Shown: piece after piece, positions 145 to 27,053 of the stretch | Numbering within the stretch: the stretch's first letter is position 1 | Layout of the letters: every line of letters begins with the position of its first letter | DNA from: an archaeon | Lineage (GTDB): Archaea > B1Sed10-29 > JAJSAI01 | Length of the DNA stretch: 27,053 nucleotides | Direction of reading: 5' to 3' | Assembly (NCBI GenBank): GCA_024274695.1 | Contig: JAJSAI010000004.1 | Span: 1 to 27,053 of the forward strand | Position numbers and translations under genes: made by a program | The notes under the pieces: model-generated | What the model saw: only the letters and a program-made list of their open reading frames with translations | Databases searched by the model: none | Told to the model about the DNA's origin: nothing

Positions 145-3100
145 ATGCGCGCAAGAAACCTCACACTCACAATCATAACACTCACACTGATTCTGACCAC
201 CGGGCTCGCGCAAGAAGAGCCATGGTGGAACACACAGTACCAGTGCAGGGCCAAAATAGAAAATGTACAACCAGGAGACAACCACATCACACCATTCGTC
301 GACCTAGACTATCTTGCCACGCTCTGCAACATCACCAAAGTCCGCTCCTGGACAATCATACAAAACGGAAAACAACTCCCCACCTACTCCTACGGACCAG
401 ACCAAGAAAAAACCATAATATTCACGACCACACCAGAACAAAACACCATAAGCAAACACTGGAGCGTGACCAACCGCACCGGAGGAAAAGGAAAAGACAA
501 AGCAAGCATACCTTACAAAACAACCAACCAAAACGGCACGCTAACCATAACAACAGCACAAACAGCATCAGACTGGACAACATACTACCCACAAACCTAC
601 GCACAATACACGATAACCAAAAACATGTACCTCCCCAAACCAAAACAAATACAAAAAATAACGCTCACAATAGAACACCAGCAACCCAGACTAACAGCAT
701 CAGACACATCAATAAGAATCAACGGAAAAAGAGTATACAAGAAACACCTAGACGAGTACACCACACAAAAAACACTCATTATAAGCATACCCACAGAATA
801 CCTCAAGAAGGGAAACAACCAAATAACAATAACAATCAAGCACACCAATTTTCTGGACTTATACCGTGGAGGAATAACAGTCTACCAAAAAACAACCATC
901 CACAACCCCATAATAATCACAAAAAACAACCAAACTGTCACACCACCCACAACAACACCCAAAATAGGAAACCACTGGAACACCCAAAACCAAACAGGCA
1001 AAGACCCCTCCAGACCACACGCACTACTATCATCCCACCCCAAAAAAATAACCCAAAAAAACGGGACAATAACCATAACAACCGACCACCGCGGCTACTA
1101 CGACGGCAGCGAGGCATCAGCCATAGGAACATCCTGGGCAAAATACACACTAACACAAAACATATACATCCCAGACATAACACAAATACAATACCTCAAC
1201 ATAGACTTCAACACCACCGGAGGATCACTCTGGCCATACAGCAAGCTCAAAACAAAAATCACAATATTCGTCAACAACAAAAGAGCATACCATAAAAAAG
1301 TAGAACAAACCACCCACTTCAAAGCCAAAATACCCTCCAAACACTTCAAAAACGGGCCCAACCAAATAACAATCAAAATAACACACGTCCAATACCGCCT
1401 CGTCAACAAACCCCAAACCACAACAATATACAACATAACATTCACCACCAAAAACCAAACCCAAAAAACAACAAACACCCAAACAACAGCCTGGCTATAC
1501 TACACAGACAAAAAACTACCCCCAGGACCAACATACCAGCCCAAAACAACCATAACACCACCCAGAGCACTCGACAAACTAACCGGGTACTACTACCCCT
1601 GCTTTTACTCAGTAGCAAGCGAAACACAAACAACCACCATAAGCCACTATGAAACAACAACAGCAATACACGTAAAAGGAAAACTAAGAGTACTCGGCGC
1701 CCACAAAGCGCACGTGTACGTAACAACACCAACCAAAACCAAAGAGATATTCAGCAGAATGTACGCACCACTCATCACATTCCACAGAAAGCTTTCCCCA
1801 GAAACAGGAGAAAACCCAAAAGACTACATCACCCAACACAAACACATAACAGTAAAAGTAAGATACACCTCCAGTTGCTACATAGGAGGAGAAGCAGAAG
1901 TAAAAGAAATAACAGTATGGACAGAATACGTCCCATCCAACCCCACACAAATCACGAACATCGAAAAATACGCCCCAGTACCCCCCGCACCAACCAACCA
2001 AATCTTCCAACCAGCCCAAGGAACCAAACAAAAAAACAACCAAAAACCAGCCCAAGGAACCACAATCCCAATACTCCCCATCACAAGCGCAGCCGCAGCC
2101 GCGTACGCATACCACACCCTACTACGGAAAAAACAAGCACAACTAGACCAAAAAATACGCGCGCTCACACAAGCCTTCCGCCAAACAATAGCACAAAAAA
2201 CACGCCAACACCAGCGCGTGTCAGACGCAGACTACTCCAAGTTCTGGAAACAAATACGCGCCCTCAAGAACGCGTTCGCGTACTGGAAAAAATGGCTAGC
2301 GCCAGTACCAGAATGGCTGTACAAGCGCATGAACCCACACTCCAAAAACATATTCTACCGCCCACACTACATCAAACACAGGCTCAACCACCCAACCAAA
2401 TACGGAAAACCATACGCCAACCTCATACAACCAGACGGAACCACCAACACCAAACACATACAACAAACAATAAAACACATACAAAACACAACATACCCAC
2501 CAACCAAAACACACAAGCCAACAAAACCACACTGGCCCACCACAATACACACACCAAACAACACCTACCACATACTCACACCCATCACACCAAACACAAC
2601 ACAAATAATCATACAAAACACAAGAACAGGACAACTATACACACTCCCAATACAAACCAACCCCAAAAACAAGACCATAAAATACGACCTAAGGAACAAA
2701 AAAGAATACAAGTACAAGATCACCATCACACTACCAGACGGCAGCACAATCAAACACAACAACACCCAAGCACTACAACAATACCTAAAACAAAAAATCA
2801 CGCCAAACAACAAGATCAAAAACTACACCCAAACCCCCACAGCACTCACAATCACACTACAAGACAACACAACCATCACGCTCACCAAACCCAGCCAAGC
2901 ATTCCTAGAATGGTTCCAAAAAATACTCCAGTACCCAAGCAAATACCAAAACCACCCCTACAACAAGTTCACCCTATACTACCAAACAGCACAATGGCAA
3001 AAAGCAGCAACACTCCTCACCAGACACTGGCAACAAAAAGGAATCACGACCAGTATGACAACACAAGAAACCACCCAAAGACTACAAATGCTCGACAAAC

Positions 3101-4113
3101 TCACCCCGAACCTAAAACAAATCTGGAACAACCCCACCACCCTCCAACAACTCACACAACAAGAATGGAAACAAACACACACAACAAAAGAAGAAAACAA
3201 AGAAAACGGCCCAAGAGAAGAATTCAGACAAAAACTTAACGCCAAACAAGCAAGCCTAAAAGAATACCAGGAATACCTGAACACCGTAGAAAAAATCTAC
3301 GGGACAAAATACGCGTCAAAAGTAACAATAAAAGTAGACGCAAACACCACAGCACTCGAAGGCATAAAAATAAGAATATGGAACAGATACACACAAACAA
3401 CAATACTAGACACAACAGGCCACTTCACCAAAGAACTGCCACAAGAAGGAAAAACCGTGCCACCAGACAGCACACAACAATTCATACTACCACCCGGAAC
3501 ATACAACATACAAATAGACGCCCCAAGACACGCCAGCCAAATACACCAAATAACAATACTAGACGGAGAACACACCACAATAACAACCAAACTAAAAGAA
3601 CTCTACCCACCACCAAGAACCAACACACCCCTAGACCCAATAATAGACCTCATAAGCGGAAGAAGACCAATACAAAAACAACTAAGAATAGAACAACAAA
3701 CAAACTGGCTAGCAGACAACCTCGGACAAGACCCCCTCGGAACAGGAAGAAAAACCATAATCATATGGCCAGGAACCGAAACAATAATAACAAAACATAT
3801 CATAGTCAACGGAAAGACATACAAACTCACTGAAAAAAGTTTGTATCATCTAATGAAAGAACTGCGGGGACCAAGACCCTTAAAAAACGGGGAACCTAAT
3901 ACGAGATTAAACCAGATAAAGATGCTATTCAACGTAAAGACGGATGAAGAAGTTCTGGAATTAATTCAAAAAACTCTAAAATCCGGGAAGATAATAAAGA
4001 AAGACCCTCAAACAGTCAATTTCAAAATGATTATCAACGGAAAAGAGTTTATCGTTGGAGTAGACCCCACACAAAACGTAATAAAAACAGTAATAGGCAA
4101 GGCGATCCGATGA
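145..4113 (+). CDS. Very large secreted/surface protein with duplicated beta modules and toxin-like C-terminal tip
   Basis: 1322 residues. A signal peptide (basic start, hydrophobic core, cleavage near GLA-QE around residue 22) leads into two homologous modules, about residues 102-260 and 275-437. They share anchors such as NGT(L/I)TITT, YT(L/I)T(K/Q)N(M/I)Y(L/I)P and a GxNQITI strand, which suggests duplicated carbohydrate-binding-like beta sandwiches. A third Cys-containing beta region covers about 477-598. A short Ala-rich hydrophobic stretch near 640-660 may span the membrane and is followed by charged helices. A PEGA/carboxypeptidase-regulatory-like beta domain lies near 1058-1152. The last ~110 residues, ending in a GKEFIVGVD...IKTV pattern, resemble the nuclease tips of polymorphic toxins (BECR/RelE-like); this is inference. 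Coding-strand A+C bias is extreme until about 3830, then relaxes in the tip. The ATG is leaderless and sits under the shared operator. An adhesin or S-layer-like role is the alternative. Confidence 0.7.
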   Translation: MRARNLTLTIITLTLILTTGLAQEEPWWNTQYQCRAKIENVQPGDNHITPFVDLDYLATLCNITKVRSWTIIQNGKQLPTYSYGPDQEKTIIFTTTPEQNTISKHWSVTNRTGGKGKDKASIPYKTTNQNGTLTITTAQTASDWTTYYPQTYAQYTITKNMYLPKPKQIQKITLTIEHQQPRLTASDTSIRINGKRVYKKHLDEYTTQKTLIISIPTEYLKKGNNQITITIKHTNFLDLYRGGITVYQKTTIHNPIIITKNNQTVTPPTTTPKIGNHWNTQNQTGKDPSRPHALLSSHPKKITQKNGTITITTDHRGYYDGSEASAIGTSWAKYTLTQNIYIPDITQIQYLNIDFNTTGGSLWPYSKLKTKITIFVNNKRAYHKKVEQTTHFKAKIPSKHFKNGPNQITIKITHVQYRLVNKPQTTTIYNITFTTKNQTQKTTNTQTTAWLYYTDKKLPPGPTYQPKTTITPPRALDKLTGYYYPCFYSVASETQTTTISHYETTTAIHVKGKLRVLGAHKAHVYVTTPTKTKEIFSRMYAPLITFHRKLSPETGENPKDYITQHKHITVKVRYTSSCYIGGEAEVKEITVWTEYVPSNPTQITNIEKYAPVPPAPTNQIFQPAQGTKQKNNQKPAQGTTIPILPITSAAAAAYAYHTLLRKKQAQLDQKIRALTQAFRQTIAQKTRQHQRVSDADYSKFWKQIRALKNAFAYWKKWLAPVPEWLYKRMNPHSKNIFYRPHYIKHRLNHPTKYGKPYANLIQPDGTTNTKHIQQTIKHIQNTTYPPTKTHKPTKPHWPTTIHTPNNTYHILTPITPNTTQIIIQNTRTGQLYTLPIQTNPKNKTIKYDLRNKKEYKYKITITLPDGSTIKHNNTQALQQYLKQKITPNNKIKNYTQTPTALTITLQDNTTITLTKPSQAFLEWFQKILQYPSKYQNHPYNKFTLYYQTAQWQKAATLLTRHWQQKGITTSMTTQETTQRLQMLDKLTPNLKQIWNNPTTLQQLTQQEWKQTHTTKEENKENGPREEFRQKLNAKQASLKEYQEYLNTVEKIYGTKYASKVTIKVDANTTALEGIKIRIWNRYTQTTILDTTGHFTKELPQEGKTVPPDSTQQFILPPGTYNIQIDAPRHASQIHQITILDGEHTTITTKLKELYPPPRTNTPLDPIIDLISGRRPIQKQLRIEQQTNWLADNLGQDPLGTGRKTIIIWPGTETIITKHIIVNGKTYKLTEKSLYHLMKELRGPRPLKNGEPNTRLNQIKMLFNVKTDEEVLELIQKTLKSGKIIKKDPQTVNFKMIINGKEFIVGVDPTQNVIKTVIGKAIR

Positions 4114-23361: not shown

Positions 23362-24309
23362 TTATTCAATGTCACGGATCCCCTGGCTGGTGACCGCGAA
23401 GATGACTTCTCCTTCCGGCAGGCAGGGGGAATCCACTAGTTTCGCTATCCTTTTTTCTCCCTTGCTCTTCCTGAGGTAAATCCTGTACGTGCTCTGGTGT
23501 CCTAGCACGTTCCCTCCTATAGGGGTAGTAGGATCACCGAACAGGATTCCAGGGTTGCTCATCACCTGGTTGGTAACGTACACGGGTATATTGTACAGGT
23601 CAGCCAGCCTCTGCAGGGAGTGCAGGTGCTTGTTAAGCTTCTGCTGCCTCTCGGACAGCGTGCCTCTTCCCACGTACTCTGCCCTGAACTTTGACGTGAG
23701 AGAATCTACTATCAGCAGTTTGATGTTCTCTTTCTCTATTACTTCTCCCGCTTTTTCCACGAGCACCATCTGGTGGTCTGCGTTGTACGCTCTCGCTACA
23801 AGGATGTTTCTCAGCACTTCTTTCGGGTCCAGGTCAGTGGCCTCAGCCATCTGCAGCACTCTTTCTGGCCTGAAAGTGTTTTCAGTGTCTATGAAGAGGC
23901 ACTTGCCTTCCAGGCCCCCTTTTTCTTTCGGGAGCTGGACGTTCACGGCCAGCTGGAGCCCGAGCTGGGTTTTGCCAGAACCGAAGGTCCCGTAGACCTC
24001 TGTTATGGCCTGGGTTTCTATCCCTCCTCCGAGGAGCTGGTCCAAGGCCTTTGATCCCGTGGTGAGCTTGCCTATGTTCTTTCTTCTCTCTAATATCTGC
24101 TCGGCGGTCTCGAACCCTATCTTGAGTGCGTTCCTGGCCGCGGTTATTATCTTGTTCGCGGTGGCCTCGCCTATCCCGAACTCTGAAAGCTCTCCTGCGC
24201 TGGCCACTGCTATCGCTTCCAGGGTCCGGTAACCCGCTTCCCTGAGCTTGGCGGCGGTGGCTTCTCCCACTCCGGGGAGGTCTTCAATGAACTTTATTTC
24301 TTTGGCCAT
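23362..24309 (-). CDS. radA: DNA repair and recombination protein RadA
   Basis: 315 residues from the second of two adjacent ATGs, which has the better distance to GGAGGG. N-terminal helix-hairpin-helix region ([20 protein letters not shown] and a second HhH), the polymerisation motif GFETA, Walker [10 protein letters not shown], Walker B LLIVDSLT, the L2 region TNQVMSNPG and the C-terminal [12 protein letters not shown] all match archaeal RadA at normal length. It forms filaments on single-stranded DNA and carries out strand exchange. It follows the RPA gene with overlapping stop/start (TGATG), forming an operon with it. Confidence 0.95.
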
Positions 24310-25355
24310 CATGATCCCTCCAGCTCTTGTTTGATGCTGTACTCCCGGAAGCCTCTTATGACGAACTCGGTCCCATCGCCTGAGAGGCTCCCGTGGAAGA
24401 CTTTCTCTTCCCCGAGGAGTTTATTCTTTACGGTCTCATAAGGGTTTTGGTCGCGCGCCAGGTCTTGTCCAGTAATCCCCGCGAGGTCCTCTGCCGTGTC
24501 AAAGAAGGCCACGCTCCTCTTTTCTCCTGACGAGTCTGACAAGACCAGGCTGAGGACCAGGGACTTCCGCTTGTCCTGGCACTGGCATCCGGTGGTGTTG
24601 TGCCTTGGGCAGTAGTCCACTATCCTCGGCTCGAAGACTCTCGTGACGACCGCCCTAACCCCTGCAGGCTCTCCTGGCGCTAGCTCTGCCATTCTCTTGC
24701 GCGGGAACCTGTCGGAGGGCCTGCGCGACTCGCTGATCATCGTGCTCCGGACAGTGTGAACTTCTCCTTCTTTTTCCCTGTAGCCCTTGACCGTCACGGT
24801 CTGGCCTGCTGACAGGGGATGGAACGCGTGGCCGTTCCAGAGCACCAGCCTCTTCTCACGCCCGTTTTCTTCCACGACCGCGGTCCGGACGACTCCCTTC
24901 TCGAAAAACCTTCTTGGGAAGACCCTCACCACGCTCAGCTCGATCTCGTTCTCTTCCCGGCCGGGCTCGAGCTTTTCGATCCTCGTGCTCTTGGTGTAGT
25001 GGAGTTCTGGGCCCATCCTCCCTTCTTTTTCCCTGGCCCCTGAAACCTTTATCCTGTCGCCAGGGGAATACTTGCCCGCCAGGTCAGCGTCCTTGTCCCA
25101 GAAAACGAGCCGCACCCTCCCTTTTTCTCCCGAGAGGATCAGGGACGAGTAGTACCTTCCTTCACCGAACTGCTTCTTGCCGTAAACCTTTTCAACCGTG
25201 TACTCTTCCGCTGGGTCCAGGAGCCCTTCTTCTTTGGCTATCGCGTACAATGCTCCCTCCCTGTTCAAGAGCCCAGCGTACTCTTTCTGCTTTTCTTTTA
25301 TTCTCCTTTCAAGCTCTTCTTTGCCCAGTTTTTCAAGAAGCTTTTCTTCACTCAT
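24309..25355 (-). CDS. rpa: Replication protein A, single-stranded DNA-binding subunit
   Basis: 348 residues. The N-terminal helical segment ([15 protein letters not shown]) is typical of archaeal RPA and is followed by OB folds near 50-130, 135-205 and 225-345. The third includes a zinc site [12 protein letters not shown] (C, H, C, C), as in eukaryotic RPA70. It binds and protects single-stranded DNA and works with RadA, whose gene follows directly. The start overlaps the end of the gene upstream by 8 nt, so all three are co-translated. Confidence 0.85.
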
Positions 25356-26436
25356 CGTAAGGCCTCTTCTTGGTTATTCTGCGCATCATCTCCCTTTCGG
25401 TCTCGGCATAGTCTATCGGCATGGCCGCAGGGCCTTCTGGGAACAAGGGGACTTCCTGTTCTATTTTCTCCTGCTTTTTAACCCTTTCAGCGAACTCGGG
25501 CAGTTCTTTAGGGGTTAGTATGACCGGCTTCATCAGCACTGCTCTCGCTTCTGCCTTGAACCTCTGCTCCTGCTCTTTCTCGAGAACCTTTCTCGTGCTC
25601 TCGTCAAAGGATTCTATCCTCGGCTGGCGCATGTACTCGGTCTCAAAGGGCCAGACTATGCTGTCGAAAGCGTTCTTCGCCTTCCAGAGCCCTATTTCAA
25701 CGGCCTTCTGTTCCCTTTTCGTGAGCGGCCGGTCGAAGATGATGAGGGGCACCAGCGTGTCCTTCGTGGTCACTCTCTTTCCAACCACCTTCTTAACAAG
25801 CCGGGGGTCCGTCAGCAGGAGCATGTGCAGCAGCGCGGTTTCTGACACGTACTTTTCCACGAGGGCAGGGTTTTCTTTTTCCGGGAGCTTTTTTATTTCT
25901 CCCACGAGCACCTTGTTCCCTACCTTCGCGGCCACGTCAACGTCAACAGTTTCTCTGACGAAATGTGTTTTCTCCTCCACGACCTCAGGGGCTTTCTCGT
26001 ACTTTTCGCCTTTCAAGGTGGCCTGCTTAAGGGTCTTCTTCACTTCAACCTTTTTTTCTACGGTCCCTCCTTCAAGTGTCCTGTCCCTAACGGTCTCGTA
26101 ATCGTATATGGTCTTCGGGGCCAGTTCTCCCCTTTTTTTCACTTTCTTCTTTTTCTTGCCCGGGCGCATTCCCCTGTGCAGGTCTTTCAGGAAGGCCACG
26201 CCGAACCACAGGCCCGGATACGAGGGCTTTATCCTTCCCGAGGGCCTGCCTGATATCTTCACGTTGTACTTCGGCCTGAAGTCCGAAAACGCCTGCCTCA
26301 CCTGCTTCTCCAGCTCATACTGGCCTGCTCTCCAGAACTGGTGCAGGGGAACCTGTTTAGCAGGCTTTCCTGCAGGAGGCTTTTTTATTCTCGCCCCGAA
26401 GTCCTCCAGCCTCGGCTGTTTTTTCTTTCTCGCCAC
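25348..26436 (-). CDS. Basic protein with PIP-like box and possible PD-(D/E)XK nuclease core
   Basis: 362 residues, Lys-rich. Residues 7-14 (QPRLEDFG) fit the QxxLxxF pattern of sliding-clamp (PCNA) interaction boxes. A Lys-rich loop lies near 93-102. Residues 165-182 (DVDVAAKVGNKVLVGEIK) fit the D...ExK core of PD-(D/E)XK nucleases, with D167 and E180-x-K182. A helical region follows. It leads the operon with RPA and RadA, which implies a role in replication or recombination. The family is not one I recognise, and the nuclease reading rests on a short motif. A TATA element near 26460-26467 gives a leaderless start. Confidence 0.6.
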   Translation of the reverse strand: MARKKKQPRLEDFGARIKKPPAGKPAKQVPLHQFWRAGQYELEKQVRQAFSDFRPKYNVKISGRPSGRIKPSYPGLWFGVAFLKDLHRGMRPGKKKKKVKKRGELAPKTIYDYETVRDRTLEGGTVEKKVEVKKTLKQATLKGEKYEKAPEVVEEKTHFVRETVDVDVAAKVGNKVLVGEIKKLPEKENPALVEKYVSETALLHMLLLTDPRLVKKVVGKRVTTKDTLVPLIIFDRPLTKREQKAVEIGLWKAKNAFDSIVWPFETEYMRQPRIESFDESTRKVLEKEQEQRFKAEARAVLMKPVILTPKELPEFAERVKKQEKIEQEVPLFPEGPAAMPIDYAETEREMMRRITKKRPYDE

Positions 26437-26519
26437 ATCTTCTTTTGGAGCCCAACAGTGATATAAGGGTTCCCTTTTCCCCGGAAGCGTTAAAAACTCT
26501 CCCGGCCTTTTTTCACGTG
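26437..26519. promoter_or_regulatory. Divergent promoter region
   Basis: Minus-strand TATA (CTTATATC, about 26460-26467) lies about 27 bp from ATG 26436, and plus-strand TTAAAAAC (about 26490-26497) lies about 26 bp from ATG 26520. Both transcripts would be leaderless. Confidence 0.5.
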
Positions 26520-27053
26520 ATGAGAGTGGAGTCCTACGGCAGGATAGTGTTCGTCCAGGGAGTGGGAATGAACAGCAACAGCATTATCTTGGATGACGAG
26601 GAGAAGGGAATCATAGACCCTGGCCTGCCGGACAACTACTACCTGCTCGGGGTCCTGAAAAAGAGGGGCGTTGGCCCCGAGGATGTTTCGGTGGTGGTGG
26701 ACACAGAGCCCCACGCCGACCACTGCGGAGGGAACGCGCTTTTCCCGAAGGCAAGAGTCTACGCGGGGAAGGACGCTGCGGACTACGTTTCTGCCGGGGA
26801 CCCGAAGTACACTGTCTCAGGGCTTTTCGGAGTCAAGCTTGCCAAGAGGAGGGTCATACCCCTGAAGGAGGGTGACGTGCTCTCCTTCGGGGAGACGCGG
26901 TTCAGGGTGCTAGAAACTCCTGGGCATGCTCCGGGAGGCATAAGCTTGTACGAGCCAGACATGAAGCTGCTCGTGTGCGGGGACGTGGCGTTCAAGGAGG
27001 GCGTGGGCCGGACTGACCTGCCCGGGGGCAACGTGAGGCTCCTCAGGAAGAGC
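26520..27053 (+). CDS. Metallo-beta-lactamase-fold hydrolase, cut by the window end
   Basis: 178 residues present; the 3' part is beyond the window. NSIILDDEEKGIIDPGLP, VVVDTEPHADHCGGN, LETPGHAPGGISLY and LLVCGDVAF follow the order of metallo-beta-lactamase motifs. The metal motif HxHxDH reads ExHxDH here (E before PHADH), so the first His is replaced by Glu. The other ligands (HADH, PGH, GD) are kept. Glyoxalase II-like or related thioester/phosphodiester hydrolases are possible. Confidence 0.8.
   Translation, partial: MRVESYGRIVFVQGVGMNSNSIILDDEEKGIIDPGLPDNYYLLGVLKKRGVGPEDVSVVVDTEPHADHCGGNALFPKARVYAGKDAADYVSAGDPKYTVSGLFGVKLAKRRVIPLKEGDVLSFGETRFRVLETPGHAPGGISLYEPDMKLLVCGDVAFKEGVGRTDLPGGNVRLLRKS

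Follow-up and report, generated by a model that had tools for sequence, protein, structure and literature searches.

We report that a 362-residue protein encoded immediately ahead of RPA and RadA in an archaeal genome is very probably a nuclease of the PD-(D/E)XK superfamily, its catalytic activity being deduced from conserved residues and from the modeled fold of a homologue. The protein is previously unclassified, and its family is recognized by none of the libraries that were searched. The reading toward which we lean, if only just, is that it is tethered to the clamp PCNA and operates beside RPA and RadA with a logic like that of NucS; catalysis, PCNA binding, substrate, co-transcription and pathway all enter this reading as deductions from sequence and models. 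The gene lies in a window of 27,053 nucleotides (the whole stretch of DNA analyzed here) from a small-genome archaeon of the Diapherotrites, whose assembly amounts to 825 kb in 32 contigs.

Gene layout and start codon

As the original prediction had it, the nuclease gene overlaps RPA and RPA in turn overlaps RadA, with all three on the minus strand (Table 1), and from these overlapping reading frames we infer that they are co-transcribed. Pfam searches recovered Rad51 for RadA (4e-98), and an OB fold together with a weak Rep_fac-A_C match for RPA. The divergent neighbor of the nuclease gene, which begins at 26520, encodes a metallo-beta-lactamase-fold protein. A spacing of 30 nt between the TATA box and the start codon is the expectation for leaderless archaeal transcripts, and the placement of the TTATA element fits such a transcript beginning at or near the GTG. 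This GTG is also the sole in-frame ATG, GTG or TTG ahead of codon 46. Given the position of the box and the lack of an alternative start before that codon, the GTG start is supported, and the N-terminal tail with its clamp motifs is hence probably translated. The segment 26437-26519 as a whole constitutes a divergent promoter region, with TATA-like boxes exactly 30 nt from both the nuclease GTG and the ATG of the metallo-beta-lactamase-fold gene, which suggests that both genes give rise to leaderless transcripts. Elsewhere in the window, positions 145-4113 encode a 1322-aa protein without a Pfam match.

Table 1. Positions of the nuclease gene, its operon partners and the predicted elements within the encoded protein
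Feature	Coordinates	Strand	Remarks
Nuclease gene (predicted PD-(D/E)XK type)	25348..26436	-	362 aa, GTG start; first in putative nuclease-RPA-RadA operon
RPA, OB-fold single-strand DNA-binding protein	24309..25355	-	8-nt overlap with nuclease gene
RadA recombinase	23362..24312	-	4-nt overlap with RPA
TATA-like box TTATA	26462..26466	-	First base 30 nt upstream of nuclease GTG
PIP-like motif 1, QPRLEDFG	26395..26418	-	Residues 7-14, preceded by K6
Putative PIP motif 2, QVPLHQFW	26332..26355	-	Residues 28-35, preceded by K27; strict Qxxhxxaa
Basic loop KKKKKVKKR	26131..26157	-	Residues 94-102; from sequence
Predicted catalytic beta-hairpin	25888..25938	-	Residues 167-183; D167-x12-E180-x-K182
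Family signature after hairpin	25846..25884	-	Residues 185-197; invariant P185, E188, N189, Y196

The predicted nuclease core and its family

The D-x12-ExK core that had been proposed for this protein is present, with its residues correctly numbered as D167, E180 and K182, and so is the proposed basic loop. A search of 61 genomes returned two weak matches, and one of these homologues, when used as a query, recovered a third. The resulting family comprises four divergent proteins, all from Diapherotrites, with the three distant homologues sharing 21-28% identity with the 362-aa protein. Conservation of D167, E180 and K182 had been suggested as a check on the prediction; all three are invariant across the four proteins, as are L184 and the four signature residues listed in Table 1. 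The residue two positions before D167 is acidic throughout, being D in the 362-aa protein and E in the homologues. The common core spans residues 161-247, and its alignment score was reached by none of 500 shuffles in each pairing. When residues 1-100 were compared with the helix-strand-helix preceding the core of the homologues, the resemblance to the G015 homologue was suggestive, with P 0.24 upon shuffling, and we thus claim no homology outside residues 161-247.

AlphaFold2 modeling of homologue L082 yielded a PD-(D/E)XK fold with a pLDDT of 77 and a pTM of 0.76. The structural matches of this model belong mostly to the same superfamily and are led by Cdn1 (Z 9.2, 2.8 A over 125 aligned residues), XisH (Z 8.5) and AF1548 (Z 8.2), followed by FokI (Z 7.9) and EndoMS (5gke; Z 7.5, 3.3 A over 109 aligned residues) and, lower down, by NucS (2vld; Z 7.3), McrBC (7.2), Bax1 (6.7) and Hjc (6.1). 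Z values of 7-9 are middling, and the best Foldseek E-value was 0.0029, with none reaching 0.001. The 362-aa protein, modeled together with the three homologues, gave a poor model (pLDDT 44), which includes, in turn, two strands (168-172 and 175-182), a helix (190-209), a further strand (227-234) and a further helix (240-257), a succession that would suit a PD-(D/E)XK core, and in which D167, E180 and K182 are placed on the first two of these predicted strands. The best structural matches of this model are not PD-(D/E)XK proteins, which means little at such a pLDDT, and its RNase E-like matches were not accepted as evidence given the quality of the model. The fold check proposed at the outset is therefore borne out by L082, with the model of the protein itself being too poor to serve as a test; neither variation of the motif residues nor a non-nuclease fold, the two outcomes named beforehand as speaking against a nuclease, was encountered, the fold being judged on this homologue only. 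Given that one superfamily is consistently matched and that the invariant D-x12-ExK falls on the expected hairpin, the nuclease assignment is a strong one.

Pfam, NCBIfam, PADLOC and PHROGs offered no usable match for the protein or its homologues; the 362-aa protein matched no Pfam family at E-values up to 10 and nothing in a PDB sequence search. A weak NCBIfam Bud32 match of one homologue, scoring 19.8 bits where the cut-off is 174, was rejected, and PDB matches of the family alignment to kinase, Fic and similar proteins, with E-values of 0.07 or worse, were judged to be due to chance. A search of 394 archaeal genomes found family members only in the same four genomes, a pattern search of GTDB contigs detected no further ones, and none were found in viral, phage and plasmid collections. 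Since no members were found beyond the Diapherotrites, on present evidence the family is limited to this lineage and patchy within it (4 of 19 genomes), with more distant relatives being conceivable.

Putative clamp-binding motifs

QPRLEDFG, the PIP-like motif to which the original prediction had drawn attention, lies at the N-terminus as claimed; it has no second aromatic residue and is not a strict PIP box. QVPLHQFW, which had been overlooked, follows the Qxxhxxaa definition of the PIP motif (PMC4929162), with W as the second aromatic, and falls in a flexible region with pLDDT under 50. Upon shuffling, a strict PIP motif within the first 40 residues has a P of 0.0016. We also constructed a lineage-specific PIP matrix from the C-termini of 16 FEN1 and 8 NucS proteins of Diapherotrites, which bear motifs such as QSRLDQWF, QSRLDQWS, QSRLDRWV, KQAKLEKYF, KQKGLGDYL and KQKPLAEFM. 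With this matrix, the occurrence of both motifs within the first 45 residues has a P of about 0.0002 by shuffling, a value that is post hoc because the motifs had been seen beforehand. In the FEN1 proteins of this lineage (L085, L096-L111) the second aromatic is often replaced by S or V (QSRLDQWS, QSRLDRWV), giving a relaxed style of PIP. Given that the final aromatic is often absent from Diapherotrites PIPs, QPRLEDFG is in keeping with this style (compare QSRLDQW). The two PIP-like motifs, their agreement with the style of the lineage and the presence of a PCNA gene together make tethering of the protein to the clamp plausible, and we slightly favor it. Thus, of the clamp-binding nuclease originally envisaged, the nuclease stands on its invariant residues and the fold of L082, and guidance by PCNA gains from QVPLHQFW and from the FEN1/NucS style, with the homologues, in which PIP motifs are absent from the N-terminus, counting against it; the searches turned up no close orthologue.

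This absence would also agree with a different reading, which we regard as rather unlikely, namely that the protein is a PD-(D/E)XK nuclease that is not bound to the clamp, that its PIP-like motifs arose by chance in a tail that is basic and flexible, and that it acts with its operon partners, to which it is joined by a real overlap, on recombination intermediates such as RPA-coated or RadA-bound DNA. On the lineage matrix QPRLEDFG and QVPLHQFW score 9.2 and 5.2, both below the 14-26 of the FEN1 and NucS motifs from which it was derived. Unrelated proteins, too, contain segments with comparable scores: 2 and 12, respectively, of 7061 windows from neighboring proteins score equally or higher. 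However, both shuffling values argue against a chance origin, as does the tail being modeled at low confidence, as if disordered, which is usual for clamp motifs.

One homologue (that from G018, L084:2357-3160) has ETMLDDFF near its C-terminus, with a matrix score of 10.4, and is the sole homologue with a C-terminal PIP-like motif; its sequence terminates in ETMLDDFFSSLLEK. Clamp binding may thus have shifted between the ends of the protein within the family. We also noted in the 362-aa protein a close repeat of its first motif, QPRIESFD at residues 271-278 (25603-25626, minus strand), which could be either a third clamp-like motif or a chance occurrence.

Known systems, genomic context and possible function

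The 362-aa protein shares with NucS/EndoMS (PF01939) its archaeal provenance, a predicted PD-(D/E)XK core whose hairpin reads D-x12/13-E-x-K and, putatively, a clamp motif on a flexible tail. Its gene lies in an apparent operon with radA, and NucS/EndoMS, which is activated by the clamp, is encoded on the radA transcript in Thermococcus (PMC8228993), where the nucS and radA reading frames overlap in T. kodakarensis (PMC4929162). However, the protein has no Pfam NucS_C match even at an E-value of 10, its two PIP-like motifs are N-terminal whereas that of NucS is C-terminal (no clamp-binding motif is seen at its own C-terminus), and its hairpin is followed by an LPxxEN signature; in hhalign comparisons residues 165-198 align with the NucS hairpin at a probability of only 2%. 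By the lack of a profile match, the opposite placement of the motifs and the different signature, it is not a NucS, and it seems to parallel that clamp-bound repair nuclease independently. A hairpin with residues spaced as D-x12-[E/Q]-x-K and the recombination context are likewise reminiscent of Hjc (PF01870), than which the protein is three times longer and to which it has no Pfam match. The nuclease domains of Cdn1/Can2/Card1, XisH and AF1548 provide the best structural matches of L082 (Z 8-9), but at about 10-14% identity, with no CARF sensor domain or sequence-level relationship found. An extreme N-terminal PIP followed by a flexible linker has been proposed for TIP, the Thermococcales PCNA inhibitor, which is not a nuclease (PMC4929162). 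Replacement of NucS or Hjc by the 362-aa protein was rejected, since the same genome encodes a genuine NucS (G000:C14, ending in KQAKLEKYF) and Hjc (G000:C22) elsewhere, besides PCNA (G000:C21); the protein thus adds to the known nucleases and replaces none.

The PCNA-tethered reading can be put as a sequence of steps. The protein would be an active, metal-dependent DNA nuclease, cutting DNA with D167, E180 and K182 of the hairpin, and its flexible basic N-terminal tail, with two PIP motifs, would hold it to PCNA. Tethering would direct cutting to freshly replicated or repair-synthesized DNA, near the fork or sites of repair synthesis, and the broken or gapped product would be coated by RPA and then repaired by RadA, both from the same overlapping gene set. 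The protein may have a role in recombination or fork repair, a proposal that draws on an operon seen in one genome only. We entertain more tentatively the stronger proposal of a second, independently evolved archaeal pathway of clamp-directed cutting, alongside NucS, in which a Diapherotrites-specific PD-(D/E)XK nuclease with tandem N-terminal PIPs would be expressed together with RPA and RadA as a unit, letting strand exchange follow replication-coupled cutting at once. If correct, the PCNA-tethered reading would repeat the Thermococcus nucS-radA arrangement of clamp-bound nuclease and recombinase, this time built on another nuclease and extended by RPA, and would support the notion that recombinational repair is fed by clamp-directed cutting, a connection described as still awaiting exploration for NucS (PMC8228993). 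It would also give a functional class to a family that no searched library recognizes.

No equivalent nuclease gene was found upstream of RPA at 14 other Diapherotrites RPA loci, 13 of which had at least 2 kb of upstream sequence, and the three homologues adjoin unrelated genes, none of them beside RPA. The RPA-RadA pair itself recurs and is common across Diapherotrites; a general nuclease-RPA-RadA operon was therefore rejected, the nuclease being upstream only here among the loci read. Such patchiness, the four unrelated neighborhoods, the strong sequence divergence and the several restriction or CRISPR-ancillary nucleases among the structural matches could indicate a sporadic mobile or defensive, restriction-like nuclease that landed upstream of RPA, making the operon accidental. 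We consider this improbable, given the lack of matches in PADLOC, PHROGs and the phage, plasmid and viral collections, the absence of a methyltransferase or mobile-element gene directly adjoining any copy, and the tight overlap with RPA. A catalytically dead, DNA-binding subunit aiding RPA, which the existence of inactive PD-(D/E)XK members and the strong divergence from the homologues might suggest, is very improbable with D167, E180, K182, E188, N189 and Y196 all retained.

In the course of this survey we noted that RadA is interrupted at the same site, close to residue 114, by an insert of about 500 residues in two other Diapherotrites genomes (G008:C44, L048 and L054; G013:C8, L047 and L055). 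The interrupted RadA is a single open frame of 829-838 aa, and we take the insert to be, in all likelihood, an intein located close to the Walker A region.
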